The notes under the pieces are model-generated. The model had not been told where the DNA came from and did no database searches. It was given only the letters and a program-made list of their open reading frames with translations. A stretch of DNA of 44,503 nt from Xanthobacteraceae bacterium. Lineage in GTDB: Bacteria > Pseudomonadota > Alphaproteobacteria > Rhizobiales > Xanthobacteraceae. Position numbers and translations under genes: made by a program. This document shows positions 3,504-24,678 of the stretch, piece after piece. The stretch spans positions 1 through 44,503 of the forward strand of contig JASHOR010000098.1 of assembly GCA_030041005.1 (NCBI GenBank), read 5' to 3'. The first letter of the stretch is position 1. Every line of letters starts with the position of its first letter.

Positions 3504-4820
3504 TCAGAGCTGGACTTCCTCGAGTTCCCGATTGGCCGTTTCCGGACCGAGCAGGTAACCGATGATGGTGCTGATCCAGAGCACGGAAGTCGCGAGGAAC
3601 GGAATGGTCGGTCCGAACACCGCAATTCCCCAACCGACGAGGTAGGGCGCGAAGATCGAGGCCACCCGGCCGCCGCCGACCATGATGCCGAAGCCGGTTC
3701 CGCGCAGGCTGGTGCGGAAGAACTCGCTCATGTAGGTGTCGCTGTTGCCCCACAGCCAGCCCAGCATGCCGATCATGATCGAACCGAACACGAGGAAGAT
3801 CGTGAAGTTTCCGGTCAGCGACGCAACGATCGTACAACCGATCATGATCACAGCGCCGAGGATGCCGGACGGACGACGGCCGATGAGATCCGACAGCCCC
3901 GTGCCGACATAAGACAGGAAGAACTGCACGACGTAGAACATCATCGCGTAGAAGATGGCGTCGGTCGGGCTGGTGTGGAATTTCCGCACCATGAACGTGG
4001 TGAGAAACACCGTGATGCCCCAGTAGCCGCACGCATTCGGGATATACAGCAGCCAGCCGATGATGATCCGGCGCCACGCGCCGGGAATCGAGAAGATGTT
4101 CACGCGGGGATGAACGTAGCCTTCGTCCTTGATGTGCTGCTGGATTTCAGCCTGCGCCTGCTTGTAGCGTACCGATTCCTGAATGAGGCGGCGGAAGGCG
4201 AAGACCAGAATGGCCGGCACGATCGCAAATCCGAACGTCCACTGCCAGCCGAAGCGCGGCACGATGAAGAGCGCACAGATGGCGGCGAAGATGTATCCGG
4301 CGGAGTAAAGCGAGAACATGACACCGCCGGTGCCGAGCGCGCGGACCCGTTTTGGCCACATCTCGGCCGTGTAGGGTGCGCCCACCGCCAGTTCGCCGGC
4401 GCCGCCGATGCCGGTGAGGAAGCGCAGGCCGGTAAAGATATAGAGATTGGTGGATATGCCGCCGAGGGCGGTCGTCAATCCGTAGAGGATGATCGACCAT
4501 CCGAGCGCATCGCGGCGCCCGATCCTGTCGGCAAGATAGCCAAAGCCGACCGTCCCGATCGTATAGCCGACAAGAAAGATCGAGCCGATAAGGCCGATCG
4601 TCTTGACCGTGACGTTGAGGTCGTGGGCGAGCGTCGGACCGAGCATGCCGAAGATATTGACGGCATACGCATCGAACCCGTAGCCAAGGCCCGCCGCCAG
4701 CGCCACCAGAAAGGCATCGCGGAACGGAATGTTGAGCTGGGACGATTTCGGGTCGGCGGTGCCCGGTGGAATGATCGAAGGTCGACGTCCACCACCCTCG
4801 GCCATGACTCCTTGGCTCAT
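3504..4820 (-). CDS. MFS transporter, aromatic acid/metabolite:H+ symporter type
   Basis: 438-residue major facilitator with about 12 hydrophobic helices. The loop 2-3 motif reads GYLADRIGRRDALG and a related loop 8-9 motif reads GTGLSDLIGRRPSG, both diagnostic of MFS. The opening PFRDAFLVALAAGLGYGFDAYAVNIFG resembles the sialate/aromatic-acid:H+ symporter families (AAHS/SHS). A good ribosome binding site (AGGGAGGA) precedes the ATG at 4820. The gene runs divergently from the Rieske oxygenase operon across a 486-nt control region, which suggests that it imports the oxygenase substrate or exports a product. The substrate is unknown. Confidence 0.88.
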   Translation of the reverse strand: MSQGVMAEGGGRRPSIIPPGTADPKSSQLNIPFRDAFLVALAAGLGYGFDAYAVNIFGMLGPTLAHDLNVTVKTIGLIGSIFLVGYTIGTVGFGYLADRIGRRDALGWSIILYGLTTALGGISTNLYIFTGLRFLTGIGGAGELAVGAPYTAEMWPKRVRALGTGGVMFSLYSAGYIFAAICALFIVPRFGWQWTFGFAIVPAILVFAFRRLIQESVRYKQAQAEIQQHIKDEGYVHPRVNIFSIPGAWRRIIIGWLLYIPNACGYWGITVFLTTFMVRKFHTSPTDAIFYAMMFYVVQFFLSYVGTGLSDLIGRRPSGILGAVIMIGCTIVASLTGNFTIFLVFGSIMIGMLGWLWGNSDTYMSEFFRTSLRGTGFGIMVGGGRVASIFAPYLVGWGIAVFGPTIPFLATSVLWISTIIGYLLGPETANRELEEVQL

Positions 4821-5306: not shown

Positions 5307-6557
5307 ATGGCAGCAAAGAACCACCGGCAATGGCTGGCCGAGCCGAACCTGAAACGGTCGGAATGGGTCGACAGCCGAATTTATTCCGATCAGGAGATAT
5401 TCGAGGAAGAGCTCGCCAATATCTTCAAGAAGACCTGGATTCCGGTCTGTCATGAATCCGAACTGCCCAAAGCGTACGATTTTCGCACTGTCAGCATTGC
5501 GCGCGAGCCGGTGATCGTGGCCCGCGGTCCTGACAACGAGATCAGGGCGTTCCTCAACGTCTGCCCGCACCGCGGCATGATCATCGAGCGCCGTCCGTCC
5601 GGCAGCTTCCTGGAAGGTTCGCCCTCGGGCAACCCGAAGCGCATGACCTGCATGTTTCATGCCTGGCAATACGATATGCGCGGCAATTGCGTGTACATCA
5701 GCCGCGAGAAGGAAGGCTATCAAGAACGCCTTTGCAAGGAAGATGTCGGGCTGCGGCGGCTGCGCTGCGAAGTCAAATTCGGCGGCTTCGTCTGGGTCAA
5801 CCTCGACGACAGTCCCAAGGTCTCGCTGGAGGATTGGGCTGGACCGGCGTTCGAGTGCCTGCGCAAGTCGCTGGAGGCCGAACCGCTCGAAGTCTTCCAC
5901 TATCACAAGGCGATCGTGAACGCGAACTACAAGCTGTGGCACGACACCAACTGCGAATTCTATCACGACTTCATGCACTACCATAACCGCGTGACCGGCT
6001 TTAACGACGCCTATTTTGCGCGCAAGAACGAAGCGTTCGATCACGGCCACGTCGTCGTCGGCACGTTCGAAGTCAATTACGACAAATATGAAGGCTTCGA
6101 ATCCCGCGCGGCGCTGTCGTTCCCGCATTTGCCGCCGAATCAGTGGTACATGATCGATCTGTTTCCGGGCATGAACTTCAACCTGCGCGGATCGGCATTT
6201 CGGTGCGATATCGTGACCCCGCTGGCTCCGGACAAGGTGATGATCGAATACCGCGGGCTCGGCCTCAAACGCGATACGGCGGAGGAACGCCGCACGCGCA
6301 TCAACCACCACAACTCGATCTGGGGGCCCTTCGGCCGCAACCTGCACGAGGACCTGATCGGCGTTCAGGGTCAGGGCACGACGATGGCGCCGGGCGCCGA
6401 GCCGCGCCGCATTCTTCAGGGCCGCCACGAAGACCAGACGATCCACGACGAAAACGGCATGCGGCACTACTACAAGGAATGGGGCCGCTGGATGAATCGG
6501 ACGCCGAGCGAGCCCGAAAGTCCGTTCGTGGAACAGGTATCGGTTGCCGCGGAGTAG
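5307..6557 (+). CDS. msmA: Rieske oxygenase large subunit, MsmA-like (methanesulfonate monooxygenase)
   Basis: 416-residue oxygenase alpha subunit. The N-terminal Rieske [2Fe-2S] site is C86-P-H88 ... C115-M-F-H118 with 26 residues between the two halves. Most ring-hydroxylating oxygenases have 15-17; C-x-H-x26-C-x-x-H is the signature I recall for MsmA of methanesulfonate monooxygenase, which splits methanesulfonate with O2 and NADH into formaldehyde and sulfite. The mononuclear iron site reads N215-C-E217-F-Y-H220-D-F-M-H224-Y-H226, so the usual bridging Asp of D-x-x-H is Glu. The C-terminal E348-D349 is a likely third ligand. The ATG at 5307 follows CAGGAGGA. Order alpha, beta, ferredoxin, reductase matches msmABCD. 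Substrate is inferred from motif and context; another small sulfonate is possible. Confidence 0.85.
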   Translation: MAAKNHRQWLAEPNLKRSEWVDSRIYSDQEIFEEELANIFKKTWIPVCHESELPKAYDFRTVSIAREPVIVARGPDNEIRAFLNVCPHRGMIIERRPSGSFLEGSPSGNPKRMTCMFHAWQYDMRGNCVYISREKEGYQERLCKEDVGLRRLRCEVKFGGFVWVNLDDSPKVSLEDWAGPAFECLRKSLEAEPLEVFHYHKAIVNANYKLWHDTNCEFYHDFMHYHNRVTGFNDAYFARKNEAFDHGHVVVGTFEVNYDKYEGFESRAALSFPHLPPNQWYMIDLFPGMNFNLRGSAFRCDIVTPLAPDKVMIEYRGLGLKRDTAEERRTRINHHNSIWGPFGRNLHEDLIGVQGQGTTMAPGAEPRRILQGRHEDQTIHDENGMRHYYKEWGRWMNRTPSEPESPFVEQVSVAAE

Positions 6558-6661
6558 CCGTAGTCCGACGTAAGGCGGCGGGCCCATCTTGCGGCCCGCC
6601 GGGACAGACACGACGCCGGTCGCCTCGCGGCGGGCCGTAGCATTTCCAACGGGGATTGAAA

Positions 6662-7144
6662 GTGGACGCGTCAGCGCTGGTTCGTGACACCATCTATCGA
6701 TCGACCATCCTGCTCGATCAGCAGCGATGGGAGGAGTGGCTCGCTCATTGCGACGACCGGTTCGAGTATGCGATCCGCGCCTTCAGCCCGGAGATCAACA
6801 AGGACGTCACCTACCTCGCCCTCGACCGCGATGGCCTTGCCTCGTTGTTGAAGCTATTGCCGAAGCACAATACCGATCATTCGCCGCTGAGCCGGCATAC
6901 GTCCGTCTATACGGTTGATGTCGACGAGGCGGCAAAATCGGCAAAAGCGGTGAGTTCGGTCATCGTCTATCAAACCCTCTTGGACGGCATCAACTCGCAC
7001 GTCGACGCCGGGGAAAGCCGCTTGTTTATCGTCGGCAAATATCTCGATACGCTCAAGATCGAGGACGACAAGGCCAAGTTTCTCAGCCGCGAGGTGCGCA
7101 TCGAAAACCGCCGGCTCGACAAGGGATCGCACTGGCCGATCTGA
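6662..7144 (+). CDS. msmB: Oxygenase small (beta) subunit, MsmB-like
   Basis: 160-residue protein of the ring-hydroxylating beta-subunit (NTF2-like) fold. It has the typical opening VRDTIYRSTILLDQQRWEEWLAHCDDRFEYAI and a C-terminal region ending in REVRIENRRLD. These subunits have no cofactor and form the trimeric base of the alpha3beta3 oxygenase. It lies about 100 nt after the large subunit gene. I chose the GTG at 6662 because GGGGA lies 6 nt upstream; a TTG at 6656 is the alternative and would add two residues. The name follows the msmABCD-like gene order; the protein is weakly conserved, so the family is clear but the symbol is less so. Confidence 0.8.
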   Translation: MDASALVRDTIYRSTILLDQQRWEEWLAHCDDRFEYAIRAFSPEINKDVTYLALDRDGLASLLKLLPKHNTDHSPLSRHTSVYTVDVDEAAKSAKAVSSVIVYQTLLDGINSHVDAGESRLFIVGKYLDTLKIEDDKAKFLSREVRIENRRLDKGSHWPI

Positions 7145-7194
7145 CGCAACGCAGTGTCCGCGACCGAAATTTGGGCTGACGAGAAGACGTCTTG

Positions 7195-7560
7195 ATGGCT
7201 TGGAAACGCATATGCGAGGCGACCGAGGTCGCCGAAAACTCCGTCAAGAAGTTCGAAGTCGACGGCGTGCCGATCCTGGTGGTGAATTACGGCGCGGGCT
7301 TCCGGGCGATTCCGCCGATCTGCCCGCATATGGAGGAACCGCTGGAAGAATCCGGCGTCGTCGCCCGATGCGTCCTCACCTGTACGAAGCATTTGTGGGC
7401 GTGGAATCTGCAGACGCTGGAAATGCAGGGCGAAACCGAAAGACCGCTCAAGACCTACGACATCAAGCACGAGAACGGGGTGATCCTCGCCGATATCGAC
7501 GGTGAACTGACCTACGATTTCGACAGCGAGGACGACATGGACGACGATTTCTTCAAATAG
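7195..7560 (+). CDS. msmC: Rieske-type ferredoxin, MsmC-like
   Basis: 121-residue Rieske ferredoxin that would carry electrons from the reductase to the oxygenase. The cluster ligands are C43-P-H45 and C63-T-K-H66 with the ordinary 17-residue spacer, unlike the 26 in the large subunit. The C-terminus is unusually acidic (DFDSEDDMDDDFFK), which may form a docking surface. The ATG at 7195 is preferred over the TTG at 7192; a GAGAAGA stretch lies upstream. The gene sits 50 nt after the small subunit and 18 nt before the reductase, all in one operon. Confidence 0.85.
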   Translation: MAWKRICEATEVAENSVKKFEVDGVPILVVNYGAGFRAIPPICPHMEEPLEESGVVARCVLTCTKHLWAWNLQTLEMQGETERPLKTYDIKHENGVILADIDGELTYDFDSEDDMDDDFFK

Positions 7561-7578
7561 CGGCGCCGCGGGTTTGCC

Positions 7579-8613
7579 ATGCAGATAACGGTTCAGGCCA
7601 AAAGCGGCGAACTGACTTTCGATTGCGGACAGCACGAATCGATCCTCTATGCCGGGCTGCGGCAGGGCGTCCCTCTGCCGTTCGAGTGTGCCACCGGCAC
7701 CTGCGGCACCTGCCGCGCCCGGGTGATGGCCGGCGACATCGACGTGCAGTGGAAGCAGGCGCCCGGCGCCGCCCGGCTCAAGCCGGACAAGGGCGACATC
7801 CTGATGTGCCAGACGCGGGCCCGATCGGACTGCGTCGTGCGCGTGCCCTCCGAACTTGCGATCGCGGACGCAGCGCGGCCGGCCGCGCGCCGCGGCATTA
7901 TTCGCGCAATCCGCAGGCTGACGAAGGACGTCGCCCATTTCGACCTGCATTTGTCCGCGCCTATGAGTTTCCAAGCCGGGCAGTTCGTCGTCATCGAAGC
8001 TGCCGGCGTCGCCGGAGGCCGGGCCTATTCGATGGTCAATTTCGCGGCCGATTGCGAACGGCTCGAGCTCCTGATCAAGCGCAAGCCGGGCGGCCGCTTC
8101 GGCGATTGGCTGTTCGACGAACTGCAGGGGGAGCCGGCCGTGCAGGTGTTCGGCCCGCTTGGGCGCGCGGTGTTTCGCCCCGCAGAAGACAGGAACATCG
8201 CCTGCATCGCCGGCGGGTCGGGCATTGCCGGTATGATGGCGATCCTCGACCACGCCGTGCAGGCGGACCACTTCCGCAGCCACGCCGGCGCCCTCTATTT
8301 CGGCGTGCGAACGCTGGCGGACGCCTTTTATCTTGAACAGTTGTCGCGTTACGTGGCGGCTTCGCACGGCAATCTCGACGTCGTGATTGCCTTGTCCGAC
8401 GAAGCGGCCGCAACCCCGCTGCACGCCGCATTCCCTCTGCTCAAGCTTGCCAGCGGCATGGTTCACGCCGTCGCGGCGAGCGAAATGGCCGCCCGCGACC
8501 GTGACGTGCTCACCTACGTGGCGGGGCCGCCCGTCATGGTCGACAGTACCATCCGCTCGCTGATCGCCGGCGGCGCCGCCATCAAAGATATCCGTTATGA
8601 CAAGTTCGGCTGA
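7579..8613 (+). CDS. msmD: NADH:ferredoxin oxidoreductase of the oxygenase, MsmD-like
   Basis: 344-residue reductase. Residues 1-90 form a plant-type [2Fe-2S] domain with C37-x4-C42-x2-C45 and C77. This is followed by a FAD-binding barrel with the RAYS motif (GRAYSMVNF) and a C-terminal NAD-binding domain with GGSGIAGMMAIL. This ferredoxin-FAD-NAD layout is that of class IB/III oxygenase reductases such as BenC and MsmD. It takes electrons from NADH and passes them to the Rieske ferredoxin encoded just upstream. Its 3' end overlaps the next gene by 17 nt, which implies coupled translation. The family is certain and the symbol follows from operon order. Confidence 0.87.
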   Translation: MQITVQAKSGELTFDCGQHESILYAGLRQGVPLPFECATGTCGTCRARVMAGDIDVQWKQAPGAARLKPDKGDILMCQTRARSDCVVRVPSELAIADAARPAARRGIIRAIRRLTKDVAHFDLHLSAPMSFQAGQFVVIEAAGVAGGRAYSMVNFAADCERLELLIKRKPGGRFGDWLFDELQGEPAVQVFGPLGRAVFRPAEDRNIACIAGGSGIAGMMAILDHAVQADHFRSHAGALYFGVRTLADAFYLEQLSRYVAASHGNLDVVIALSDEAAATPLHAAFPLLKLASGMVHAVAASEMAARDRDVLTYVAGPPVMVDSTIRSLIAGGAAIKDIRYDKFG

Positions 8614-9385
8614 TACGAGCGCGAAATCCAACGTCGGCGCCACGCCATGGCGAACGGTCGGCACCTGCGGCGCGGCCGAATTGGCGAAGGCGAGATGGGA
8701 AACCATCAACCTCGTGCAGTGGCTGGCGCGCATCGCCAACAGCTACGGGAGCGACGACTCGCCGGAGCGGCGCACGGAGCTGGAATTCGACGCCGCGAAT
8801 GCCGCCTTTGTCACCAGGCCGTTCGCCCGGAACATATCGCTCGGACTGCGCCTGCCGGGCCTTGAGATGCAATTTCTCGAGGACGGCAAGCCGGCGCCGC
8901 ACATCTTCGACCCGCAGGAGCGTCCCGCGTCCCAAGTCGAGGCCTGGATATTGGTCGAGCTCTTGCATCGCGGCATCGATCGAGAAAAGTTCTCCAAGCG
9001 GCTGCCCTATGCGATGGCGGATTTGATGAGCGGCGACGAGCCGCAGCATTTGCCGCAATCGTGCCAGGATGGGCTCGAGGAGCTCGCTGCGTGGTTCCAG
9101 AATGCCGCCGCGGTGCTCGATGCCGCGGCGCACGCGGCAGGCGCCGATCAAGCACGCAGCGTGTGCCTGCCGCAGACGCTGGCTCTTGTCTGCGTGTCGG
9201 GTCCGCGCTCGAACCGGACCGATTTCGGGTTCTTGCCCGGCGCCGACGACAAACCCGAGCCGTTCTTTTACGCAGACGCTGCGGCGGCCGGCGGCAACCG
9301 CAGGATTCTGGAAGCGTCGAAGCTGCTCGCTGCGGCGGATCCCGCTGCCGCGGCGCTCGCCTTTCTCAGGTCCGCTGCCGGTTGA
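8597..9385 (+). CDS. Uncharacterised protein translationally coupled to the reductase
   Basis: 262-residue protein with no family I recognise. It is soluble, without signal peptide or membrane helix, rather alanine-rich, and has no obvious cofactor motif. A central helical stretch (SQVEAWILVELLHRGIDREKFSKRLPY) and an acidic N-terminal half are visible. The strings LPQTLALVCVSGPRSNRTDFGFLPG and KPEPFFYAD may form a structured core. The ATG at 8597 lies inside the end of the reductase gene (17-nt overlap), so it is part of the oxygenase operon. A role in assembly, substrate handling or C1 or sulfite disposal is inferred from position alone. It ends 15 nt before the convergent LysR gene. Confidence 0.8.
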   Translation: MTSSADTSAKSNVGATPWRTVGTCGAAELAKARWETINLVQWLARIANSYGSDDSPERRTELEFDAANAAFVTRPFARNISLGLRLPGLEMQFLEDGKPAPHIFDPQERPASQVEAWILVELLHRGIDREKFSKRLPYAMADLMSGDEPQHLPQSCQDGLEELAAWFQNAAAVLDAAAHAAGADQARSVCLPQTLALVCVSGPRSNRTDFGFLPGADDKPEPFFYADAAAAGGNRRILEASKLLAAADPAAAALAFLRSAAG

Positions 9386-9400
9386 CTCGTCGTGGCGTCT

Positions 9401-10378
9401 TCAGACGCGTTCCGCCCGCTTACGCTTGCCGGCCGGGCCATCGTAAGCCGCCGGAGAATCGACTTCCAATCGCTTGCTCAGCTCGCCCGATTCGCAGAGC
9501 TTGCGCATGATCGATACAAAGGCGCTGGTCATCGGCAACACGATTTCACCTTCCGCCCAGAACAATCCGACCGCCTGACTGATGATGGGATCGACGATCG
9601 GCAACGCGCGCGTTCCGCGATGCAGTCCCGGCAGGTGAACGAAATGCGACGGGATGATCGTACACAGCTCGGTAAACTGGACCTGGAACATCAGGTGCAG
9701 GATCGACTCCGATTCGACTTGTGCGACCGGCGAGCATCCGACGCTCTTGAACGCCTGATCGAGGAAGGACCGCTCGTGCATCGACGGGCGCAGCATCGCC
9801 AGCGGCTGCTCCGCCACCTCCTTCCAGGTAATCGTCTCGCGGTTCTGAAATTTCGGCACGTCGGGGACCAGCAGGCTCAGCCGTTCGGTAAAGATCGGCA
9901 GCGTGTTTTTGCGCCCGAGGTCCGCCTTGTTGAGATAGGTGATCGCGACATCCAGCGCGAAATTGTCCAAGCCAAGCTTCATCGCTTCGTTGCCGATGAA
10001 CTGTACGTCGGCGTGAATGCCCGGATACTTGTTGCGCATCGCCTCGATCAGCGAGGGAAGCACCGGCGACATGGAAGGCATCGCACCGATGCGCAGATGT
10101 CCGGTGAGGTTTTTCTGCATCATTGCGACTTCTTTGCGCATGGCGTCGCAATACGCCAATACCGCACGCGACCACACCGCCACGCGCTCGCCTTCCGCGG
10201 TCAGACCGTGGAAACGCTGGCCCCGTCCGCGCAGAAAGATCGGGACGCCGAGTTCAAGCTCGAGCTGCTTGATTGCGCTGGACAGACTGGGCTGCGTCAC
10301 ATTGCAGCGCTGCGCCGCACGGCCGAAATGGCGTTCCTCGGCGACGGCGACGAGATAGCGAAACTGCCTGATGAACAT
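9401..10378 (-). CDS. LysR-family transcriptional regulator
   Basis: 325-residue LysR-type regulator. The N-terminal winged helix-turn-helix reads FRYLVAVAEERHFGRAAQRC followed by NVTQPSLSSAIKQLELELGV, which fits the family consensus closely. An effector-binding domain follows from about residue 90. It is convergent to the oxygenase operon and divergent from the TauE-family permease, with 173 nt between the two starts that hold a near-perfect 19-bp palindrome (10441-10459). That arrangement suggests self-regulation and control of the tauE-gcvT-like unit, and possibly of the oxygenase operon. The inducer is unknown; the substrate or sulfite are candidates by context. Confidence 0.9.
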   Translation of the reverse strand: MFIRQFRYLVAVAEERHFGRAAQRCNVTQPSLSSAIKQLELELGVPIFLRGRGQRFHGLTAEGERVAVWSRAVLAYCDAMRKEVAMMQKNLTGHLRIGAMPSMSPVLPSLIEAMRNKYPGIHADVQFIGNEAMKLGLDNFALDVAITYLNKADLGRKNTLPIFTERLSLLVPDVPKFQNRETITWKEVAEQPLAMLRPSMHERSFLDQAFKSVGCSPVAQVESESILHLMFQVQFTELCTIIPSHFVHLPGLHRGTRALPIVDPIISQAVGLFWAEGEIVLPMTSAFVSIMRKLCESGELSKRLEVDSPAAYDGPAGKRKRAERV

Positions 10379-10440
10379 GTGACCCGCTCGCGTTATCGCT
10401 TCCCGACGCCGGCATCATATTATCCGATAAATAGACGCCG

Positions 10441-10459
10441 TCTAAGGAAATTCCTAAGA
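10441..10459. promoter_or_regulatory. 19-bp palindrome, LysR operator candidate
   Basis: TCTAAGGAAATTCCTAAGA is symmetrical around its central A with a single mismatched pair (eight of nine pairs match). It lies 62 nt upstream of the LysR start and 92 nt upstream of the permease start, between the two divergent genes, which is the usual place for a LysR box. A possible -10 box TATACT (10488-10493) faces the permease; a clear -35 is not visible. Confidence 0.5.
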
Positions 10460-10551
10460 TTGTTTATTGTGGCAATTGCTCACTCTTTATACTGCATCGC
10501 AGCAAACGCAATGGCGACGATAGCGCTCCAAGCAAGCAGCGTGGGGGTCCC

Positions 10552-11307
10552 GTGGGAATAGTGGTGCTGACGTGGATAGGGCTGTTCGGGCTGATCTCCG
10601 GCCTGATGATCGGCTGCATCGGGATCGGCGGCGTCATTCTGGTACCGGCGATGCTGTATCTCGCGGACGTTCCGGTCCGCGTCGGGATTCCCGCGGCGAT
10701 CGCCGCCTATATCCTGTCCGGAATCGTCGGCACTGCCGTTTATGCCCGCCACAAATCGATCCGCTGGAGCATGACCGGGTGGCTCTGTGTCGGCGCGGCG
10801 CCGGCGGCGTTTGCCGGCGCATGGATTGTCAGCGTTGTCGATCCGCGGATCCTCGAAGCCCTTATCGGTCTCCTCACGTTTCTCTCGGGACTGAACTCGC
10901 TGCGCAGGCGGGAAGCGATTGATGGTCATGCCGCCACTGTTTCCAACGGGGCGCTGCTGACGATCGGAACCGCAACGGGATTCCTGTCGTCCATCACCGG
11001 GACCGGCGGGCCGCTCGTGCTGGTGCCGATCTTGATGACCATGCGGCTGCCGGTGCTGACCGCGGTCGGGTTGAGCCAAGCGATTCAGTTACCGGTCGCG
11101 ATCGCCGCGACGGCGGGAAATGTCGTCTATGGTCGCGTCGATCCGATCCTGGCCGGCATTCTCGCCGCGGCTTTGACCATCGGCTCCGCCGGCGGCGCCA
11201 AACTCGCCCACGTCGTACCGCGTTCGTTATTGCGGCGGATCGTGTCGGTGGTGCTGGTGCTGATCGGCTCGGTGATTCTGGCCAATGTTGGCCGGCGGCT
11301 GCTGTAA
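10552..11307 (+). CDS. TauE/SafE (TSUP) family permease, putative sulfite exporter
   Basis: 251-residue integral membrane protein of the TauE/SafE (DUF81, TSUP) family. The two half-repeats are visible: LFGLISGLMIGCIGIGGVILVPAML near the N-terminus and ATGFLSSITGTGGPLVLVPILM in the second half, each with the conserved glycine-rich G-x-G-G. Members export sulfite or sulfoacetate in organisms that break down C-S bonds. In this island that role fits the removal of sulfite made by the MsmA-type oxygenase. The start is taken as GTG 10552; a GTG at 10561 is possible. The next gene begins 11 nt after the stop, so they form one unit. Some relatives carry other anions. Confidence 0.85.
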   Translation: MGIVVLTWIGLFGLISGLMIGCIGIGGVILVPAMLYLADVPVRVGIPAAIAAYILSGIVGTAVYARHKSIRWSMTGWLCVGAAPAAFAGAWIVSVVDPRILEALIGLLTFLSGLNSLRRREAIDGHAATVSNGALLTIGTATGFLSSITGTGGPLVLVPILMTMRLPVLTAVGLSQAIQLPVAIAATAGNVVYGRVDPILAGILAAALTIGSAGGAKLAHVVPRSLLRRIVSVVLVLIGSVILANVGRRLL

Positions 11308-11318
11308 TCATCGTTGCA

Positions 11319-12323
11319 ATGGCGCTCGAACACTACCCGCTGATCGACGATTACGGCGACCCTGCAGCGGAAGCGCGGGCTTGCCGAACGGATTGCGCCC
11401 TGTTTGATTTTTCCTTTCTCGAATGCGTGCGCGTAACCGGGGCCGGCGCCGGCGGCGTCGTCGCAACCTTCACCGGACGGCCGGCGGATGCGCTGGCCGA
11501 GGGCAGGATCCATTATGCCCTTCGCGTCGGCTCGCATGGACAGGCGCTTGCCGATCTGACCGTGTGGCGAACCGGAGTCCAATCGTTCGAAGTGATGAGC
11601 GGACGGCGTAACGACATTACCGATCTGTGCGCTTATGCCGCTTCCGACCTTGATGTCCGCGACCTGGCCGGGGAAAGGGCTGTCTTCGCCATACAAGGAC
11701 CCGGCTCGCTTGAGGCCCTGCGCCGCCTGGGCGATGTCGGGCCGATTGAGCGGGTCCCCTATTTCGGTTTTTGCCGCCACGCGATCGCCGGCATTCCCTG
11801 CACGATCGGGCGGCTCGGATACACCGGCGAAGCTGGTTTTGAAGTCATCGCGGCGCGCCGGGACGCCCATGATCTGTGGCAAGCACTGTCGGCGCAAGCG
11901 CGGCCCGCCGGGTTCATTGCCGCCGACATGCTCCGGATCGAGGCGGGCTTTGTCCTGTTTCAAAACGAGTTTTGCCTGCCGGTTTCGCCCGCGGAGGCCG
12001 GTCTCGGCAGATTATGCCGCTCGACCGCCCGGGCGGCGCCCCAACTCGCGCTCATCACGTTTCGGGCGGAGGCCCACGCGGTGCGCTGGCCGTGGACGCC
12101 GCCGCACGCGCTGAAGTTGCCAGTGTCGCCGGATGAAATCGCGGTGACATCGGCGTGCGACAGCATCATGGCGGGAAGCATCCTCGGACTTGGCTATGTC
12201 CGCGCCGACGCTGCCGTCGAAACGCGCCTGCATGATCCCGCAGGGACCTTCGTCAACATCGAGCGGACGGCGATGCCGTTCTACGATACGGCCAAGCAGC
12301 GACCGCGAGCGCCCTGGCGCTGA
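11319..12323 (+). CDS. GcvT-type tetrahydrofolate-binding protein, putative C1 transferase
   Basis: 334-residue protein of the aminomethyltransferase (GcvT/DmdA/YgfZ) family. Landmarks are FAIQGPGS, the LGYTGEAGFEV motif whose Glu faces folate, and ADMLRIEAGFVLFQNEF. The stretch GQALADLTVW matches the family's G-x-x-x-DD-L but has Ala for the first Asp. It is not the glycine-cleavage T protein by context: no gcvH or gcvP is near. It lies 11 nt after the TauE-like gene and is followed by PanB-like and FolD genes, so it probably moves a methyl, methylene or formaldehyde unit to or from tetrahydrofolate. The substrate is unknown; formaldehyde from methanesulfonate is an inference. Confidence 0.78.
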   Translation: MALEHYPLIDDYGDPAAEARACRTDCALFDFSFLECVRVTGAGAGGVVATFTGRPADALAEGRIHYALRVGSHGQALADLTVWRTGVQSFEVMSGRRNDITDLCAYAASDLDVRDLAGERAVFAIQGPGSLEALRRLGDVGPIERVPYFGFCRHAIAGIPCTIGRLGYTGEAGFEVIAARRDAHDLWQALSAQARPAGFIAADMLRIEAGFVLFQNEFCLPVSPAEAGLGRLCRSTARAAPQLALITFRAEAHAVRWPWTPPHALKLPVSPDEIAVTSACDSIMAGSILGLGYVRADAAVETRLHDPAGTFVNIERTAMPFYDTAKQRPRAPWR

Positions 12324-12484
12324 TCCGGCCGGCGCATGCAGCAAGGACGCCTTCATAGTCACAAGCAAACATACGATAGGTGGTGCATATTTGACTATTG
12401 TCGCGCCGCATGCGGTTTCATCCAACTAAGAATTCTCATACGCAGACATTCCCATACGCAGACAAGGAAGCGGAGGAACGGATA

Positions 12485-13393
12485 ATGGCAGACGCGCCGG
12501 CACGACGGAAAGTCACCATCAATACGCTGATGGCGAAGATGAAGAGGGGCGAACCGATCACGCAACTCGCCACTTACGATTATCGCACGGCGGTCGTGGC
12601 CGACCGGCTCGGCGTCGACATTCTCTGCGTCTCCGACACCGGCGGCATGATCCTGTTCGGCCACCCGAGCACCGTCACCGTGAGCTTCGACGAAGTGATG
12701 ATGATGGCCAAGGCGATCGACCGCGGCTCCAAATACGGGCTGCGCATGGTCGACATGCCCTATTGGAGCTTCCACGTCTCGCCCGAGCAAGCGGTCGAGA
12801 ACGCCGGGCGCTTCGTGCACGAGGCCAATGCCGAAGTGATGAAATGCGAAGGCAACAAATATCACGCCAAGAACATCGAAGCGATCGTGCGCGCCGGCAT
12901 CCCGGTGCAGGGGCATATCGGCATTACGCCGATGCGCATGCCACAGATCGGCGGCTTCACGGCCCAGGGCAAGACTGCCAAGCGCGCCAAGGAAATGGTC
13001 GAAGACGCGAAGGCGATGGTCGATGCCGGCTGCTTCTCGATTTTGTGCGAAGTGACCACATCCGAGGTTGCCGAGTATTTGGCGCAGACGCTGCCGGTGC
13101 CGGTGATGAGCCTCGGCGCCGGCAATTTGGCACACGGCGTGCACATCATCTCCTCCGACCTTTTCCATCTCTGGGAGGAACACGTTCCGCGCCATTCGCG
13201 AATCTACACCGACCTCATTCCGATCATGGAGGACGTGATCACGCGCTACATGAAGGACGTGGTGACCCGCTCCTATCCGGCCGAGAAGGAAACGGTCTTC
13301 ATGAGTCCGGAGGAGTGCAAGGCCTTTGCCACCGAACTGAAGTGGGAGAGCAAGCTCGAGGAGCTGCGATCCCCGCAGAAAAAGAGTGCTTGA
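12485..13393 (+). CDS. PanB-like ketopantoate hydroxymethyltransferase family protein (copy 1)
   Basis: 302-residue TIM-barrel enzyme of the 3-methyl-2-oxobutanoate hydroxymethyltransferase family, which adds the C1 unit of methylene-tetrahydrofolate to an oxo acid. The residues matching E. coli PanB are kept: metal ligands D51 (VSD) and D90 (MVDMP), K120 and E122 (MKCEGN), and the catalytic glutamate E189 (ILCEV). The protein is longer than PanB and diverges at the C-terminus, and no panC is near, so pantothenate synthesis is unlikely to be its main job. I recall that panB-like genes also occur in chloromethane-utilisation clusters beside folD and metF. The start ATG 12485 follows GGAGGA; a 12-bp direct repeat CATACGCAGACA lies just upstream (12437, 12453). 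Confidence 0.85.
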   Translation: MADAPARRKVTINTLMAKMKRGEPITQLATYDYRTAVVADRLGVDILCVSDTGGMILFGHPSTVTVSFDEVMMMAKAIDRGSKYGLRMVDMPYWSFHVSPEQAVENAGRFVHEANAEVMKCEGNKYHAKNIEAIVRAGIPVQGHIGITPMRMPQIGGFTAQGKTAKRAKEMVEDAKAMVDAGCFSILCEVTTSEVAEYLAQTLPVPVMSLGAGNLAHGVHIISSDLFHLWEEHVPRHSRIYTDLIPIMEDVITRYMKDVVTRSYPAEKETVFMSPEECKAFATELKWESKLEELRSPQKKSA

Positions 13394-13465
13394 ACGTTTG
13401 CCGCGGCACTGACGCGCTTGCTGCCGTAGCCGGCCGTCGCTGTTGCACGGAGGTAGCGACAACTT

Positions 13466-13481
13466 CGATAGCTTGCTATCG
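13466..13481. promoter_or_regulatory. Perfect 16-bp dyad upstream of folD
   Basis: CGATAGC-TT-GCTATCG is a perfect inverted repeat in the 160-nt gap between the PanB-like gene and folD, 73 nt before the folD start. It could be an operator or a small hairpin that attenuates or terminates. There is no T-run after it, so an operator is slightly preferred. Confidence 0.35.
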
Positions 13482-13553
13482 TAGTATTCGCTCCGGGCGC
13501 GGTGACGGATCGGCACGGCCGCCAGCCGGACCTGGAATCATATCGAGAATCAA

Positions 13554-14468
13554 ATGTCTGCTGTCCTGATCGATGGCGTAGCCGTTGCCAAATCAGTTCG
13601 CGCGGAATGCCGCGTCCGGATTTCCCGGCTGCTGCAGCGGACCGGCATAAGGCCGGGATTGGCGGTTTTGAAAGTCGGCGACGACCCCGCATCGGCCATC
13701 TATATACGGAACAAGACCAAGGCGTGCGACGAGGTCGGCATCCGGTCCGTTCCGCATTATTTCGATCGCGATTGCGATCCGCAGGCGGTGATCGATACGA
13801 TCCTGCGGCTTAATTGCGACCCGTCGATACACGGCATTCTGGTGCAGCTTCCGCTGCCCCCTCAGTTCAAGGTCGCGACGATCTTGCGCAACATCAGCCC
13901 CGACAAGGACGTCGACGGCTTCCATCTCTACAATGTGGGCGCGCTTGCCGTCGGCGAGGCGATATTTCCGCCTTGCACGCCCTATGGAGTGCTCCGGCTG
14001 CTTGAGCACGAGGCCATTCCCCTGGAAGGACAGAATGTCGTCGTCGTCGGCGCCAGCAATATCGTCGGCAAGCCGATGGCGCTGATGCTGATGCAGCGGG
14101 ATGCGACGGTCTGCATATGCCACGTCAAGACGCGCGATTTGGCTCAGTTCACCATTCTCGCCGACATCCTCGTCGTGGCGGCCGGACATCCGAATTTGAT
14201 CCTGCCGCAAATGGTCAAGACCGGCGTGGTCGTGATTGACGTGGGGATCACCCGGCTTCCCGATGGCCGGCTGGCCGGCGATGTCGACTTTGAGGGCGTG
14301 CGCCAGAAGGCCTCGTACATCACTCCGGTTCCGGGCGGCGTCGGCCCGATGACGGTGACCATGCTGCTCGTAAACACGATCGCCTCGGCGGAACGCGCCG
14401 CGGCGAATCTGCACGTGAGCATGTTTCCCGGGCAGATTGCCGGTTCATCGGCAGTGAAAACCGCCTGA
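13554..14468 (+). CDS. folD: Methylenetetrahydrofolate dehydrogenase/cyclohydrolase FolD
   Basis: 304-residue bifunctional enzyme that oxidises 5,10-methylene-THF to methenyl-THF with NADP and hydrolyses it to 10-formyl-THF. All hallmarks are present: the active-site Tyr-x3-Lys in SAIYIRNKTKAC, VQLPLP, DKDVDGFH, PPCTPYGV, the nucleotide-binding GASNIVGKPMALML, and the C-terminal PVPGGVGPMTVTMLL. Length is normal. Genomes of this group usually carry a housekeeping folD elsewhere, so this copy, beside PanB-like and GcvT-like genes and with a MetF-like gene in the same island, is probably dedicated to C1 catabolism. That is inference. It is the last plus-strand gene of the block. Confidence 0.93.
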   Translation: MSAVLIDGVAVAKSVRAECRVRISRLLQRTGIRPGLAVLKVGDDPASAIYIRNKTKACDEVGIRSVPHYFDRDCDPQAVIDTILRLNCDPSIHGILVQLPLPPQFKVATILRNISPDKDVDGFHLYNVGALAVGEAIFPPCTPYGVLRLLEHEAIPLEGQNVVVVGASNIVGKPMALMLMQRDATVCICHVKTRDLAQFTILADILVVAAGHPNLILPQMVKTGVVVIDVGITRLPDGRLAGDVDFEGVRQKASYITPVPGGVGPMTVTMLLVNTIASAERAAANLHVSMFPGQIAGSSAVKTA

Positions 14469-14592
14469 GCCATCTTTCGCCCGGCGCGGGGCGGCGCAAG
14501 TCACGTCTCGCCCATTCAACCAGGCGTCCGCTGCAATAGTGTGGCGGCGCGCTGCCGTGAGCTGGATAGTCCTTCCAGATAGCCGATCTCGA

Positions 14593-14682
14593 TCAGGGAA
14601 AGACCAGAAGCGCCACATCGATCTGGTCGGCGAGCCAGGCGGTTGCGACGACCGCGAACAACCGCTTCTGGTAGCTCGTCAT
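14593..14682 (-). pseudogene. Remnant of an MFS transporter N-terminus
   Basis: The minus strand reads MTSYQKRLFAVVATAWLADQ-IDVALLVFP and then stops. This resembles the first cytoplasmic stretch and first helix of MFS symporters of the aromatic-acid type (YQ-x-x-LF ... D-x-x-D). Nothing of the remaining 11 helices follows and no ribosome binding site is visible. It fits a truncated relic left by a deletion between folD and the cytochrome gene. At 30 residues the match could be chance. Confidence 0.4.
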
Positions 14683-14704
14683 CGGCAGAGCGGCGCCAAC
14701 CCGG

Positions 14705-15274
14705 TCAACGATAGAGCGCCAGTTCGGGCCGCGGGTCGGGGATGAAGCCGTTGCGGTTCGGCATCTTGACCCTGGGCAGCGTCCTTGCATTCATTGTTTC
14801 GGCCGGCTTGATGATGTGAGCCTGCGAAAGGACGTAGGCGACGACGCTGTAGACCTGATCGTCGGTGAGCGAGCCGGGAGACGAGAACGGCATCGCGCGC
14901 TTGACGTAGTCGAACAAGGTCGTGGAGTACGGCCAATAGCTTTCGACCGTCTTGACCGGATTCGCGCTGGCCAGCGTGCCGCGGCCGCCGATCAACTTGT
15001 CGCCGCCGATGCCCTTGGCCGGATTGCCTTGCAACTGCGACCCATGGCAGGCGGAGCAGTTTTCCGCATAGACCTTGGCGCCTTCGGCCGCGGTGCCGCT
15101 GCCCGGCGGCAGTCCGGAGCCGTCGGGCGCAATCGCGAAGTATTTGGCCAAATCGGCCGGCGCGGCGGCCGTCCCGAATCCGTAATGCGTTTGCACCTGG
15201 GCGTGCGCCGGCAGCGCGCACGCGGCGGCGAGGCACAGCGCCGCTGTGCCGGCGATCAGATCACGCGTGGACAT
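14705..15274 (-). CDS. Monoheme cytochrome c, electron acceptor of the sulfite dehydrogenase
   Basis: 189-residue periplasmic cytochrome c with a signal peptide (cleavage likely after PAHA-Q, about residue 25). There is one heme site, NCSACHG, with the distal Met probably in KRAMPFSSPGSLTDDQVYSVVAYVLS. It resembles the heme domain of SoxD and SorB but is far shorter than the diheme SoxD of Paracoccus. It overlaps the 3' end of the SoxC-like gene by 14 nt, so the two are cotranscribed and probably form a complex that passes electrons from sulfite to the respiratory chain. The pairing with SoxC is solid; the name SoxD would be loose. Confidence 0.85.
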   Translation of the reverse strand: MSTRDLIAGTAALCLAAACALPAHAQVQTHYGFGTAAAPADLAKYFAIAPDGSGLPPGSGTAAEGAKVYAENCSACHGSQLQGNPAKGIGGDKLIGGRGTLASANPVKTVESYWPYSTTLFDYVKRAMPFSSPGSLTDDQVYSVVAYVLSQAHIIKPAETMNARTLPRVKMPNRNGFIPDPRPELALYR

Positions 15275-16670
15275 TGGTCACACTCCCGTCAACCGCTACG
15301 GCCCAGCTCTGGATGGCGTTGAGGTGATAGATCGAGCCGAACGGGCCGTTGTCGCCGCGGATTGCGATCAGTTGCTGCAGCGTCGGCTGAATGTATCCGG
15401 TTTCGTCCATGCAGCGGCTTTGCAGAACTGCCGGCTTGCCGTCCCACATCCATGGAAAACTGAAGCGCACGGTGCACATCGGCTCGGCGACGACCTCGAT
15501 CCGCGCCGGGTACCAGGTCTTGCCGGCGTCGACCGACACGTCGACCGACTGCACGCGGCCGCGCCCGCTCCAGGCAAGGCCGGTGATGTTGTAGAAGCCC
15601 GCTCCCGGCAGCTTCATGTTGCCGGACGGGAACGTGATCACCGATTTGGCATCCATGATGAAGGTGAACTGGCGCGCAATCCCGTTCCCCAAGAGATCGG
15701 TGTATTTCGATGTCTCTTCGCGCGTCATGTACGGCTTGTCGCTCACTTCGAGGCGCCGCAGCCATTTGATGTGCAGGTTCCCCTCGTAACCGGGCAACAT
15801 CAGCCGCAGCGGATAGCCCTGCTCGGGCCGAATCGCCTCGCCGTTCTGGCCGTAGGCGAGGAATGCGTCGGTCAGCATCTTGTCCATGGGAATGCTGCGC
15901 GTCATCACCGCCGCATCGGCGCCCTCGGCCAGCACCCAGGTCGCCCCATCCTTGAGGCCGACCTCGCGCGCGATCGTGGCAAACGGCACGCCGACCCACT
16001 CCGACGTGCTCAACAGGCCGTGCGTGCCCTGCACGGTCTTCAATGTCGGTTTCTTCCATTCGGTGAGACCGTTGCCGGCGCATTCGATGAAATGGCGGCG
16101 AGTGACCGAAGGAAAGCGCTTGATGTCGGCCATGGTGAATATCTTGGGCGTCTCGACCATGCCGTGAACGGCCAGCCGATGTCGGCCCGGGTCGATGGTC
16201 GGAATCCCGTTGTGATCGCGCTCGTAGTGGAGCCCGGACGCCGTTACGTTGCCGAGCATTTTCTGCAGCGGGGTGAAGCTCCAGGACGTATAGGCGTTGG
16301 CGGTCGGGAAGCGCTCGCGCACTTCGGTCTCGAACTGCGAGCGCGTGCCATAGCCGCCGTCGGCGCCGATCGGCCGGCCCTGCACTTTGGTCGGGTCGGG
16401 GGGAACATCGTAATGAACGGCCCCGGGCAGAGCCTGCTGGGCCGCCGCATCGCCGCTTGCCATCGCACCGGCGGCAATCCCCGCCGCCGACCCCGCAGCC
16501 AGCAGGAACGCGCGGCGATTGGTCGCGACGCGCGAGGGAAACATGCCGTCTTTGCAGTCGCAGTCCTGTCCTTCCAGGTCGCGCCGGGCGATGAGCTTCG
16601 CCTCCGCTTTGACCATCTCATCGGCCATGCGCTGGGACTTCTCATCATAGACGATGGGATCGCGTCGCAA
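15261..16670 (-). CDS. soxC: SoxC-like molybdopterin sulfite dehydrogenase
   Basis: 469-residue sulfite oxidase-family enzyme with a twin-arginine signal (NRRAFLLAAGSAAG, Arg 52-53), so it is exported folded to the periplasm. The molybdenum-ligating Cys is C197 in RRHFIECAGNG. The dimerisation domain follows, with GRGRVQSVDVSVDAGKTW. It resembles SoxC of the sulfur-oxidising complex more than plant-type sulfite oxidase, but soxXYZAB are absent. Here it most likely oxidises sulfite made from a sulfonate, with the overlapping cytochrome gene as partner. The start is uncertain: the TTG at 16670 has GGAGGGG only 3 nt upstream; ATG 16628 or 16544 would shorten the region before the signal. Confidence 0.85.
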   Translation of the reverse strand: MRRDPIVYDEKSQRMADEMVKAEAKLIARRDLEGQDCDCKDGMFPSRVATNRRAFLLAAGSAAGIAAGAMASGDAAAQQALPGAVHYDVPPDPTKVQGRPIGADGGYGTRSQFETEVRERFPTANAYTSWSFTPLQKMLGNVTASGLHYERDHNGIPTIDPGRHRLAVHGMVETPKIFTMADIKRFPSVTRRHFIECAGNGLTEWKKPTLKTVQGTHGLLSTSEWVGVPFATIAREVGLKDGATWVLAEGADAAVMTRSIPMDKMLTDAFLAYGQNGEAIRPEQGYPLRLMLPGYEGNLHIKWLRRLEVSDKPYMTREETSKYTDLLGNGIARQFTFIMDAKSVITFPSGNMKLPGAGFYNITGLAWSGRGRVQSVDVSVDAGKTWYPARIEVVAEPMCTVRFSFPWMWDGKPAVLQSRCMDETGYIQPTLQQLIAIRGDNGPFGSIYHLNAIQSWAVAVDGSVTNVHA

Positions 16671-17199: not shown

Positions 17200-18081
17200 A
17201 TGTCCAGTCAACACCATTACAATAACATTCCGACTGAACTTTTTCGTTCGTTCGCGGCGATAAATCGGCTTGGGAGCTTCTCCAAGGCTGCCGAGGAATT
17301 GGACCTCACGCAGCCGGGCATCAGTTCCCAGATCAAGCGACTCGAGCGTATCTTGGGCGGCGACCTCTTCGTAAAGAGAGCGCGGGGGCTCGGGTTGTCC
17401 GAATTAGGGTCGCGCATTGAGCCTTTTGCGCGCCGCGTCCTGGTGCTCAACGACCAAATCATGGCAATGGCCGGCAGGCTGCCGCGGCAGGAAACGGTCT
17501 ATATCGGAATCCAGAATTCGTTCGCGCTGAAGCTGCTGGCGGATGCAGAGCACGCCTGCCGCGCATCCACTACGAAGAACTATCGATTTGTTTGCGGCAA
17601 CACCCAATTTCTCACGGAGCAGTTGAGATCGGGCTACGTCGATCTGGTCTTCATGATGATCGAGACCGAGCCGCGAACCAACGTCATCGGCGAATGGAGC
17701 GAAAGGATCGTTTGGGTGTGCTCGCCGACGCTCCCGCTCAAGCACAACGAGCCTGTCCCGTTTGTGGCACGCCAGGGCGGCCGGTATGATCGCTTTGCCT
17801 ATAACGCGCTGGAGGAGCGGGACATACCCTACCGCATCGCTTTTACCGCCGCCGATCTGGCGACCTTGTTGGCCGCCGTCGAAGCGGGCATTGGCGTGAT
17901 GATTGCACCGGAGCGCGTGGTATCGAAGTCGTTGGCTGTCGCCCAGAACAGCATTCTTCCACCGCTTCCACATTTGAAGGTCGGAGTGTTTTGCAGGGAA
18001 GGATTCGATCTCGATCGTCATCGCTCCCTGGTCAATGCGTTCGTAAACTCCGTGCAACCGCCTGCGGCCGCGCGCGAGTAG
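17200..18081 (+). CDS. LysR-family transcriptional regulator
   Basis: 293-residue LysR-type regulator. The N-terminal helix-turn-helix includes FRSFAAINRLGSFSKAAEEL and DLTQPGISSQIKRLERILGG, followed by a periplasmic-binding-like effector domain. It diverges from the soxC-like/cytochrome pair and probably controls it, following the usual LysR habit of regulating the divergent neighbour. It shows little similarity to the other LysR protein at 9401 beyond the DNA-binding domain. The effector is unknown; sulfite or a sulfonate are contextual guesses. A composite 165-bp repeat begins 62 nt downstream of its stop. Confidence 0.88.
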   Translation: MSSQHHYNNIPTELFRSFAAINRLGSFSKAAEELDLTQPGISSQIKRLERILGGDLFVKRARGLGLSELGSRIEPFARRVLVLNDQIMAMAGRLPRQETVYIGIQNSFALKLLADAEHACRASTTKNYRFVCGNTQFLTEQLRSGYVDLVFMMIETEPRTNVIGEWSERIVWVCSPTLPLKHNEPVPFVARQGGRYDRFAYNALEERDIPYRIAFTAADLATLLAAVEAGIGVMIAPERVVSKSLAVAQNSILPPLPHLKVGVFCREGFDLDRHRSLVNAFVNSVQPPAAARE

Positions 18082-18142: not shown

Positions 18143-18307
18143 CTAGTGTCCCGATTCCGAAGTTCGCATCATTATGCGGCACCCTCGTTTGCGAACTTTG
18201 GAATCGAAGGACACCAGCAACTTATTGATCTCGTATGGCTTTGGTTCAGAACTCCGCATGACGAGGTCGCGGCAGGAATGATGCGGACTTCTGAACCGCC
18301 ACACTAG
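18143..18307. repeat. 165-bp composite palindromic element, copy 1
   Basis: Two imperfect palindromes are joined by a 12-nt A+T-rich spacer. Half one (18143-18217) starts CTAGTGTCCCGATTCCGAAG and ends in its inverted copy GGACACCAG. Half two (18230-18307) starts CTCGTATGGC and ends CCGCCACACTAG. The reverse complement aligns with the copy at 40591-40755: same total length, same halves, and spacer ATCAATAAGTTG against AATCATTAAATTG. The terminal CACTAG contains the stop codon of the Crp/Fnr gene. This is a MITE-like or REP-like unit. Confidence 0.75.
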
Positions 18308-20698: not shown

Positions 20699-20707
20699 AA
20701 TTGCACA

Positions 20708-22887: not shown

Positions 22888-22890
22888 TGG

Positions 22891-23694
22891 CTAGACGGAC
22901 CTCCTCCAGGGCATCGCCAGCTTGGCGATGCAGACCATGAGGCCGCTCGAAATGATGCCTGCGATCCCAATGCTCAACATGCCGACGACTATGCCGACTA
23001 AGGACTGGTTCATGTATGCATTCCAGGTGAAATAACCCAGCCCGAGTTTTCCTGCGGCCATCTCGGCGGCGATCAGCACATTCCACGTAATTCCAACACC
23101 AAGCGTCATACCGGTGAACAGTGAAGGTAGCGCCCCGGGTACCAGGATCCGCCAGAACAAACGTGACGGTGAAGCGCCCAGGGATCGCGCCGCCTGGATG
23201 TATCTGGCGTCGATGTTCTCGATGCCCGACAGCACGTTGAGAAAAATCGGAAAGAACGCCCCCAAGAACGTCAGGAACACCATCGTCAGTTCCGTCGAGG
23301 GCCAGAACAGGATGGCGAGCGGCAACCAGGCGATCGGAGGAATCGGGCGTAAGATCTCCAAGATCGGAAACCAGGTGTATCTGATTTTTCTTCTTAGCCC
23401 GATGGCAATTCCCATCGGTACAGCCAGAACGACCGCGATGAAAAATCCCGCGTAAATCCTGAACAGGCTCGCCAGCCAGCTCTGCCAGTAACTTTCTCGA
23501 ACCGTCTGCTGCGCAATGCCCCGGATAACGGCGATCGGTCCTGGCAAGACGCTGATGATGCCCAGGCTGCGCAAAAGCTGCCACAACACAAAAAAAACGA
23601 CGATCCCGGTCGCACCCTGCCACAGAACCGGGTTCTTGAGATTCCAGATGGCTTTCGCCCGCCACGACGGAAGCGGCACCGTTTCCGCGCTCAC
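22891..23694 (-). CDS. ABC importer permease, nitrate/sulfonate type
   Basis: 267-residue SsuC/NrtB-type permease with about six helices and the coupling loop SGIENIDARYIQAARSLGAS. I start it at GTG 23694, which overlaps the stop of the preceding permease by 4 nt (GTGA) and has AGAGG 6 nt upstream. The longer frame from 23766 would run 76 nt into that gene without a ribosome binding site. It pairs with the permease at 23691-24623 to form the channel of the second importer. The substrate is inferred only from the island context. Confidence 0.87.
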   Translation of the reverse strand: MSAETVPLPSWRAKAIWNLKNPVLWQGATGIVVFFVLWQLLRSLGIISVLPGPIAVIRGIAQQTVRESYWQSWLASLFRIYAGFFIAVVLAVPMGIAIGLRRKIRYTWFPILEILRPIPPIAWLPLAILFWPSTELTMVFLTFLGAFFPIFLNVLSGIENIDARYIQAARSLGASPSRLFWRILVPGALPSLFTGMTLGVGITWNVLIAAEMAAGKLGLGYFTWNAYMNQSLVGIVVGMLSIGIAGIISSGLMVCIAKLAMPWRRSV

Positions 23695-24623: not shown

Positions 24624-24678
24624 ACCATAGCCGTTTGATGTTGTCCCGACCGGCGTCGTTTGCGGCGGTATCTGCAGC

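Follow-up and report, generated by a model that had tools for sequence, protein, structure and literature searches.

The 44,503-base stretch of DNA analysed here (the window) is one entire contig (C143) of a Xanthobacteraceae genome of 4.91 Mb in 188 contigs, with 95.1% completeness and 3.6% contamination. It probably carries a catabolic island for methanesulfonate (MSA) of the known msm kind, in which an oxygenase, MsmABCD, would feed sulfite into export and oxidation and a one-carbon (C1) unit onto tetrahydrofolate (THF), with a row of genes containing a MetF-like protein standing separate. Within this island lies PanB1, a distinct, MSA-linked paralogue of the pantothenate-synthesis enzyme PanB (ketopantoate hydroxymethyltransferase) with its aligned catalytic residues intact. 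What is new here is the conservation of PanB1 to the level of MsmA, the separate clade that it forms, its tracking of msmA across genomes and its proximity to folate genes.

The island was compared with the best 80 of 130 related stretches (the msm loci), which reach at most 10 kb either side of msmA, many being ended by contig edges, and in which homologues were counted under identity and coverage thresholds. These loci represent 79 distinct msm genomes, L032 and L054 coming from a single one. We also searched 296 genomes of the host family, with match limits of E<=1e-100 for msmA, E<=1e-90 for PanB1 and E<=1e-70 for PanB2, a second PanB-like protein of the window. Since six of the family genomes (G015, G193, G131, G035, G162 and G147) seem to be the same metagenome-assembled genomes (MAGs) as L007, L008, L009, L012, L020 and L084, these two sets are not independent. 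A class-wide draw of 385 genomes was searched for PanB1, and msmA was looked for only in the three PanB1 carriers. The genes of the island are as follows.

5307..6557, plus strand: msmA, hydroxylase alpha subunit, 416 aa, with Rieske (PF00355) and Ring_hydroxyl_A (PF00848) domains and the motif CxH-x26-CxxH
6656..7144, plus strand: msmB, hydroxylase beta subunit, PF00866 barely above cut-off; homologue at 77/80 msm loci
7192..7560, plus strand: msmC, Rieske ferredoxin, PF00355; homologue at 74/80 msm loci
7579..8613, plus strand: msmD, ferredoxin reductase with Fer2, FAD and NAD domains; homologue at 64/80 msm loci
8597..9385, plus strand: orf5, msm-linked protein, overlapping msmD by 17 bases; homologue at 13/80 msm loci
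9401..10378, minus strand: LysR-type regulator; homologue at 41/80 msm loci
10552..11307, plus strand: TauE/SafE protein, putative sulfite exporter, PF01925; homologue at 34/80 msm loci
11319..12323, plus strand: GcvT-like folate-binding protein, PF01571, conserved Asp kept; homologue at 19/80 msm loci
12398..13393, plus strand: PanB1, PF02548, start probably at 12491; at 42/80 msm loci
13554..14468, plus strand: FolD, methylene-THF dehydrogenase/cyclohydrolase, PF02882/PF00763; folD at 5/80 msm loci
14705..15274, minus strand: SoxD-like cytochrome c, SoxC partner; homologue at 11/80 msm loci
15261..16670, minus strand: SoxC-type molybdenum sulfite dehydrogenase; homologue at 9/80 msm loci

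The oxygenase is a putative methanesulfonate monooxygenase

An earlier note on this DNA, made from the letters without database searches, had pointed to a CxH-x26-CxxH spacing in the large subunit and to the gene order msmABCD. Both hold: 26 residues separate CPH from CMFH, and domain matches give the order alpha subunit, beta subunit, Rieske ferredoxin, reductase. The spacer is 26 residues long in 79 of the 81 MsmA rows formed by the window and the 80 loci, the two exceptions being unreadable at this point (L070 has an ambiguous codon within the motif and L082 is cut there), as against 17 residues in each of five further PF00848 oxygenases detected in the host genome. In the motif DTNxEfYHD, which precedes the mononuclear-iron histidines, the Glu is invariant across the window protein and the MsmA rows and is replaced by Asp in the five paralogues of the same genome; we take this position to be the bridging residue.

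Window MsmA is 83% identical to that of Filomicrobium insigne and 90% identical to that of the closest MAG, and the nearest rows bearing a family name are Xanthobacteraceae MAGs. In a maximum-likelihood tree of 93 rows it falls within the 26-spacer rows, Filomicrobium insigne included, with the 17-spacer homologues outside; the split, with 80 grouped rows, involves one change and has support of 100/99. On the 26-spacer side there are, in addition, two rows without the Rieske motif and a Paraburkholderia row, which has a 26 spacer and 51% identity and was left ungrouped. The truncated L082 was omitted from this tree, and a fusion protein, L151, was represented by its first 420 residues. The large-subunit phylogeny was one of the tests by which the earlier note had proposed to refute its own reading, and it does not place the window protein inside an aromatic dioxygenase clade; the anchors of this tree were Filomicrobium and other msm loci, and its outside rows were paralogues from the same genome and plasmid matches rather than named benzoate or aniline dioxygenases. 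Every isolate with proven growth on MSA carries the long spacer (PMC4433239), and Filomicrobium is the nearest link from the tree rows to proven MSA degraders (PMC4433239, PMC4424283). Together, the motif, the gene order, the tree and the 80 related loci support the window oxygenase as a putative MSA monooxygenase.

The spacer by itself is no proof of MSA as the substrate, because a 51% identical MsmA homologue on a Paraburkholderia plasmid shares the 26 spacer and adjoins C2-type genes. This plasmid locus, together with the lack of an msmE orthologue beside window msmA, would suit an oxygenase acting on another small sulfonate, such as hydroxymethanesulfonate or a C2 sulfonate, with the sulfite and C1 genes serving that compound. 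We consider this quite improbable, given that window MsmA is 83-90% identical to, and groups with, the MsmA of L016 and L007, loci with an msmE-type importer alongside, and that a C1 product suits the folate C1 arm described below.

MsmA homologues in other settings were also seen. The Paraburkholderia graminis gene (plasmid pPHS1_P, L157:8998-10215) has as neighbours genes for an aldehyde dehydrogenase, an acetaldehyde dehydrogenase, a 4-hydroxy-2-oxovalerate aldolase and a TSUP transporter, and perhaps serves another sulfonate. At L151:1480-3876, a 798-aa fusion combines an MsmA-like section having the 26 spacer with a reductase section (Pyr_redox_2, Reductase_C), and a gene for an MsmE-like substrate-binding protein (SBP) lies beside it. 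Homologues of 363-369 aa without CxH-CxxH adjoin genes in the order TauE-PanB1-fhs (fhs, formate-THF ligase) at L148:5561-6670 and L150:6571-7662, the latter giving no Rieske match; a further MsmA homologue, at L149:6742-7824, is a tblastn match only. Such proteins amount to an oxygenase alpha subunit without the electron entry centre, and motif-less oxygenase proteins of this sort are mentioned in PMC4433239.

PanB1 is a distinct paralogue that tracks msmA

Five genes of the PanB family are present in the host genome; the top-scoring one (338.3 bits) lies elsewhere, with PanB1 at 269.8 and PanB2 at 231.0 bits. Both window proteins miss the cut-off of TIGR00222 (PanB), set at 207.55 bits, with 203.2 bits for PanB1 and 188.9 for PanB2, and PanB1 also misses a further curated PanB cut-off (242.9 vs 272 bits). 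The aligned PanB magnesium-binding and catalytic residues D, D, K, E, H and E, which we take to be D45, D84, K112, E114, H136 and E181 of the E. coli enzyme, are nevertheless intact in 47/47 distinct PanB1 rows, redundant rows having been removed beforehand, and the conserved residues are held in the motifs VSD(T/S)GGM, VDMPY and MKCEGN. In a tree of PanB rows, from which two copies of window rows were dropped, the PanB1 rows stand on one side of a branch, and three solved PanBs and the canonical copy of the host stand on the other. Because the groups were named by motif, it is the tree split alone that supports them; the tool flagged long branches meeting, and L091, a long row, is not securely placed.

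Over the msm loci, mean identity is 75.4% for PanB1 (42 loci) and 74.7% for MsmA (80), compared with 60.7% for MsmB (77), 54.5% for MsmC and 47.5% for MsmD; PanB1 is conserved to the same level as the marker MsmA. PanB1 and MsmA distances correlate with one another (r 0.81, n=40), and 0/2000 permutations gave a value that high. When the 42 loci were followed by a whole-genome search for the 38 loci lacking PanB1, the gene was found in 61 of the 79 distinct msm genomes, the copy in G330 carrying an internal stop codon. Among the 296 family genomes, eight have msmA, eight have PanB1 and seven have both (Fisher p 2e-12, uncorrected for relatedness). The class-wide draw gave PanB1 in 3/385 genomes, including the host's own, and the other two have MsmA-like genes about 3 kb away.

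We considered PanB1 as the housekeeping PanB of this genome and ruled this out on the better-scoring copy elsewhere and the separate tree group. PanB1 does score high in the same Pfam family and lies barely under the TIGR00222 cut-off, as might a normal enzyme of pantothenate synthesis that had come along by chance; given the better PanB elsewhere in the genome, the separate grouping of PanB1 and its tracking of msmA, we regard such a passenger as highly improbable.

A folate-linked C1 arm and the proposed pathway

PanB1 lies between the GcvT-like and FolD genes. The GcvT-like protein scores well under the cut-off of TIGR00528 (glycine cleavage T-protein; 97.5 vs 235.85 bits), and the Asp aligned to residue 96 of 1woo is kept in 24/24 distinct rows of an alignment of 25 rows, one of which is the window's own copy; we take 1woo to be the protein of T. 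maritima and assume the role of its aligned Asp. Elsewhere, folD is found at L007, L008, L009, L035 and L086 and fhs at L037, L057 and L078. One or other gene is thus present at 8/80 msm loci, where chance would give about 0.7 (taking both genes as single-copy, over 1.26 Mb and in genomes of 3.5 Mb), although three of the five folD loci, L007-L009, are close relatives. PanB1 and msmA flank fhs directly at L057 and L078, and in the two class-mates with PanB1, G587 and G677 (L148-L150), the order is TauE-PanB1-fhs, followed in G677 by two folD-like genes. The earlier note had linked GcvT-like, PanB-like, FolD and MetF-like proteins to the C1 unit; the first three are present and these neighbourhoods strengthen the idea of an arm, whereas the MetF-like protein, also present, probably belongs to a second operon. 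Gene content and order thus support a putative folate-linked C1 arm made of GcvT, PanB and FolD.

Under the pathway that we propose, MsmABCD would oxidise MSA to sulfite and formaldehyde, which is the MSA monooxygenase reaction; on general chemistry, hydroxymethanesulfonate would be the likely first product of the hydroxylation. As family and gene order suggest, TauE would export the sulfite, and SoxC with the SoxD-like cytochrome c would oxidise it to sulfate in the periplasm. PanB1, the GcvT-like protein or both may load the C1 unit onto THF, yielding methylene-THF, which FolD would oxidise to formyl-THF.

The unaided condensation of formaldehyde with THF is too slow for growth, the derived doubling time being >3 weeks (PMC7073904), so that the entry of formaldehyde into the folate pool is unsettled in C1 users without Fae. 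A search of the host genome gave no Fae match, and for this entry the island offers two concrete candidates, PanB1 and the GcvT-like protein; PanB itself has been proposed as a possible promiscuous catalyst of the condensation (PMC7073904). We therefore raise, as a speculative and on balance unlikely proposal, that the PanB1 clade, alone or with a GcvT-like partner, might be dedicated to the capture of formaldehyde, or of its sulfite adduct hydroxymethanesulfonate, onto THF, as a folate counterpart of entry through Fae and tetrahydromethanopterin. If true, this would be a formaldehyde-loading enzyme derived from an enzyme of pantothenate synthesis. PanB1 might instead hydroxymethylate a 2-oxo acid from methylene-THF, in C1 assimilation, rather than load THF. 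This would keep the direction of the parent PanB reaction and would fit the intact catalytic residues; the adjoining fhs and folD in several lineages count against it, though both could also run towards methylene-THF, and the island shows no gene to process a hydroxymethylated product. We judge this alternative possible but doubtful. As to Fae, it is found in 24 of the 79 msm genomes, and PanB1 is present in 47/55 Fae-less compared with 14/24 Fae-bearing genomes (Fisher p 0.017).

A number of observations weigh against the MSA pathway or the part of PanB1 in it. The MsmA tree includes no enzyme-proven MsmA, since the collections contain none, and there is the plasmid homologue beside C2-type genes. 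In the host family, G033 has PanB1 without msmA and G255 has msmA without PanB1, and in both class-mates the MsmA-like gene closest to PanB1 is without the Rieske motif. The 14 Fae-bearing msm genomes with PanB1 include L009, apparently a relative of the same genus (it seems to equal G131), and eight Fae-less msm genomes, all of them MAGs, are without PanB1. Moreover, the ten Fae-bearing genomes without PanB1 (L010, L011, L013, L014, L015, L017, L021, L026, L027 and L042) sit in two neighbouring MsmA groups; because they are related, the Fae contrast may come down to a single loss or two and counts as weak evidence. PurU falls below its cut-off in the host genome (102.4 vs 285.95 bits). In E. 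coli, a double deletion of panB and ltaE left growth unchanged (PMC7073904), which makes the ordinary E. coli PanB an unlikely catalyst. Finally, no msmEFGH importer adjoins msmA, the genes upstream being, by eye, an MFS gene and an ABC set without an SBP. Identity between the distal SBP of the window and ten MsmE proteins, selected among the 43 loci having one, is only 29-35%, compared with 51-96% among the ten themselves; for these two reasons the MSA importer is uncertain.

Sulfite genes, regulators and transport

The sulfite genes that the earlier note had placed close to the oxygenase are all present, namely TauE (PF01925), SoxC, which lies above the NCBIfam TIGR04555 cut-off (547.9 vs 420 bits), and the cytochrome c. 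Read by eye, SoxC contains the twin-arginine-like stretch NRRAFLLAAG, and SoxD has a start that resembles a signal sequence. Two genes had gone unmentioned there, the LysR gene at 9401-10378 and orf5 at 8597-9385. No match to orf5 was found in Pfam or NCBIfam; its AlphaFold model has a mean pLDDT of 84.7, and a fold search of the PDB gave nothing at E<=0.001, the best rows being polo-box domains with a TM of about 0.15-0.2. Either side of the island, the following were noted.

3504..4820, minus strand: MFS-like transporter, named by eye; 82% identical to a gene beside importer genes in the closest relative (L007/L133)
17200..18081, plus strand: second LysR-type regulator, by domain match

Further towards the contig end, at 900-3332 on the minus strand, two ABC permeases and one ATPase were read by eye, with no SBP seen before the contig ends.

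A second gene row is probably a separate module

A second row of genes, named mainly by domain matches, lies to the right.

18304..26742, minus strand: the whole row, comprising PanB2, an SBP, two permeases, an ATPase with a cyclic-nucleotide-binding domain, a further ATPase, a MetF-like protein and a Crp-like regulator
19136-20698, minus strand: MetF-like protein, PF02219 with C-terminal PF12225, 13 kb from msmA
21589-22887, minus strand: ABC ATPase with N-terminal cyclic-nucleotide-binding domain, near the Crp-like regulator gene
23691-24623, minus strand: permease, named from its translation
25885-26742, minus strand: PanB2, in which Asn and His replace two aligned metal-site Asp of PanB

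The Asn/His substitution is common to 5/5 other rows of the PanB2 group. The MetF-like protein meets the Pfam MTHFR family and misses TIGR00676 (MetF) by a wide margin (44.5 vs 293.7 bits). GC content in this row is 0.55-0.58, compared with 0.59-0.66 elsewhere.

This row, with its MetF-like gene, PanB2 and ABC transporter, could be part of the MSA pathway, with the transporter replacing msmEFGH: the row begins 1.6 kb past SoxC on the same contig, its ABC genes share 36-58% identity with importer genes that lie next to msmA elsewhere, and the window showed no msmE closer than this one, the host's own genome not having been searched for one. We think this unlikely. MetF and PanB2 occur at 0/80 msm loci, these loci reaching 10 kb from msmA and the distance here being 13 kb. 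Because of that reach, the whole-genome search for PanB2 is the better test, and it found no orthologue in 7/7 other family genomes with msmA (at E<=1e-70, five gave the PanB1 gene only and two gave nothing). Two family genomes that lack msmA, G269 and G293, have PanB2 and MetF side by side; the GC content is lower, and the SBP falls outside the MsmE set. We thus rejected the MetF-like gene as a probable member of the island, on the PanB2/MetF distribution (MetF itself not being searched in whole genomes), the lower GC and the SBP distance. The second row is probably a separate module, with its own ABC transporter and an altered PanB-like protein, for another substrate.

Related arrangements were seen at L130:6335-14352, where two PanB-like genes, an ABC transporter, a TauE protein and FolD lie together in a genome without an msmA match, and at L127:11417-15209, where a sulfatase comes after a PanB2-type gene and folB lies upstream.

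Comparison with known systems

PanB1 is like the PanB structures 1m3u, 1oy0 and 1o66 in family and aligned catalytic residues, but groups separately from them, falls under the equivalog cut-off and is linked to msmA and folate genes. The GcvT-like protein shares its domain (69.3 bits) with the trimethylamine N-oxide demethylase 9q5a, whose GcvT-like part presumably takes up formaldehyde; the window protein, in contrast, stands alone and in a sulfonate cluster.

In the open-licence PMC literature we found no account of PanB beside chloromethane genes, and the terms 3-methyl-2-oxobutanoate hydroxymethyltransferase and methanesulfonate, searched in these spellings only, were joined solely in PMC4433239. 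The excerpts of PMC5068391 and PMC8547437 do not describe msm neighbour genes. In the global sulfur cycle MSA has an important place (PMC4433239). Few isolates that degrade it are known.

The closest described system is that of Filomicrobium sp. strain Y (Henriques and De Marco 2015, PMC4433239), for which Table 1 lists, over 20.3 kb, LysR, TauE, GcvT, PanB, SoxC, SoxD, three ABC genes, msmHGFE and msmABCD, labelling GcvT 'methylotrophic metabolism' and PanB 'C1-moiety transfer'. The earlier note knew of no described msm cluster with the present combination; this claim of novelty fails, because that table had printed it, FolD excepted, in 2015. The window shares with strain Y msmABCD, LysR, TauE, GcvT, PanB, SoxC and SoxD. 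In strain Y, msmEFGH is adjacent and divergent, and FolD and orf5 are unlisted in the table, whereas the window has no adjacent msmE orthologue, FolD in its C1 gene row and orf5 after msmD. Methylosulfonomonas methylovora M2, known here by description (PMC4433239), has msmABCD and msmEFGH; the window differs from it in having no importer operon in place, and resembles it in its four-component monooxygenase with a 26-residue spacer.

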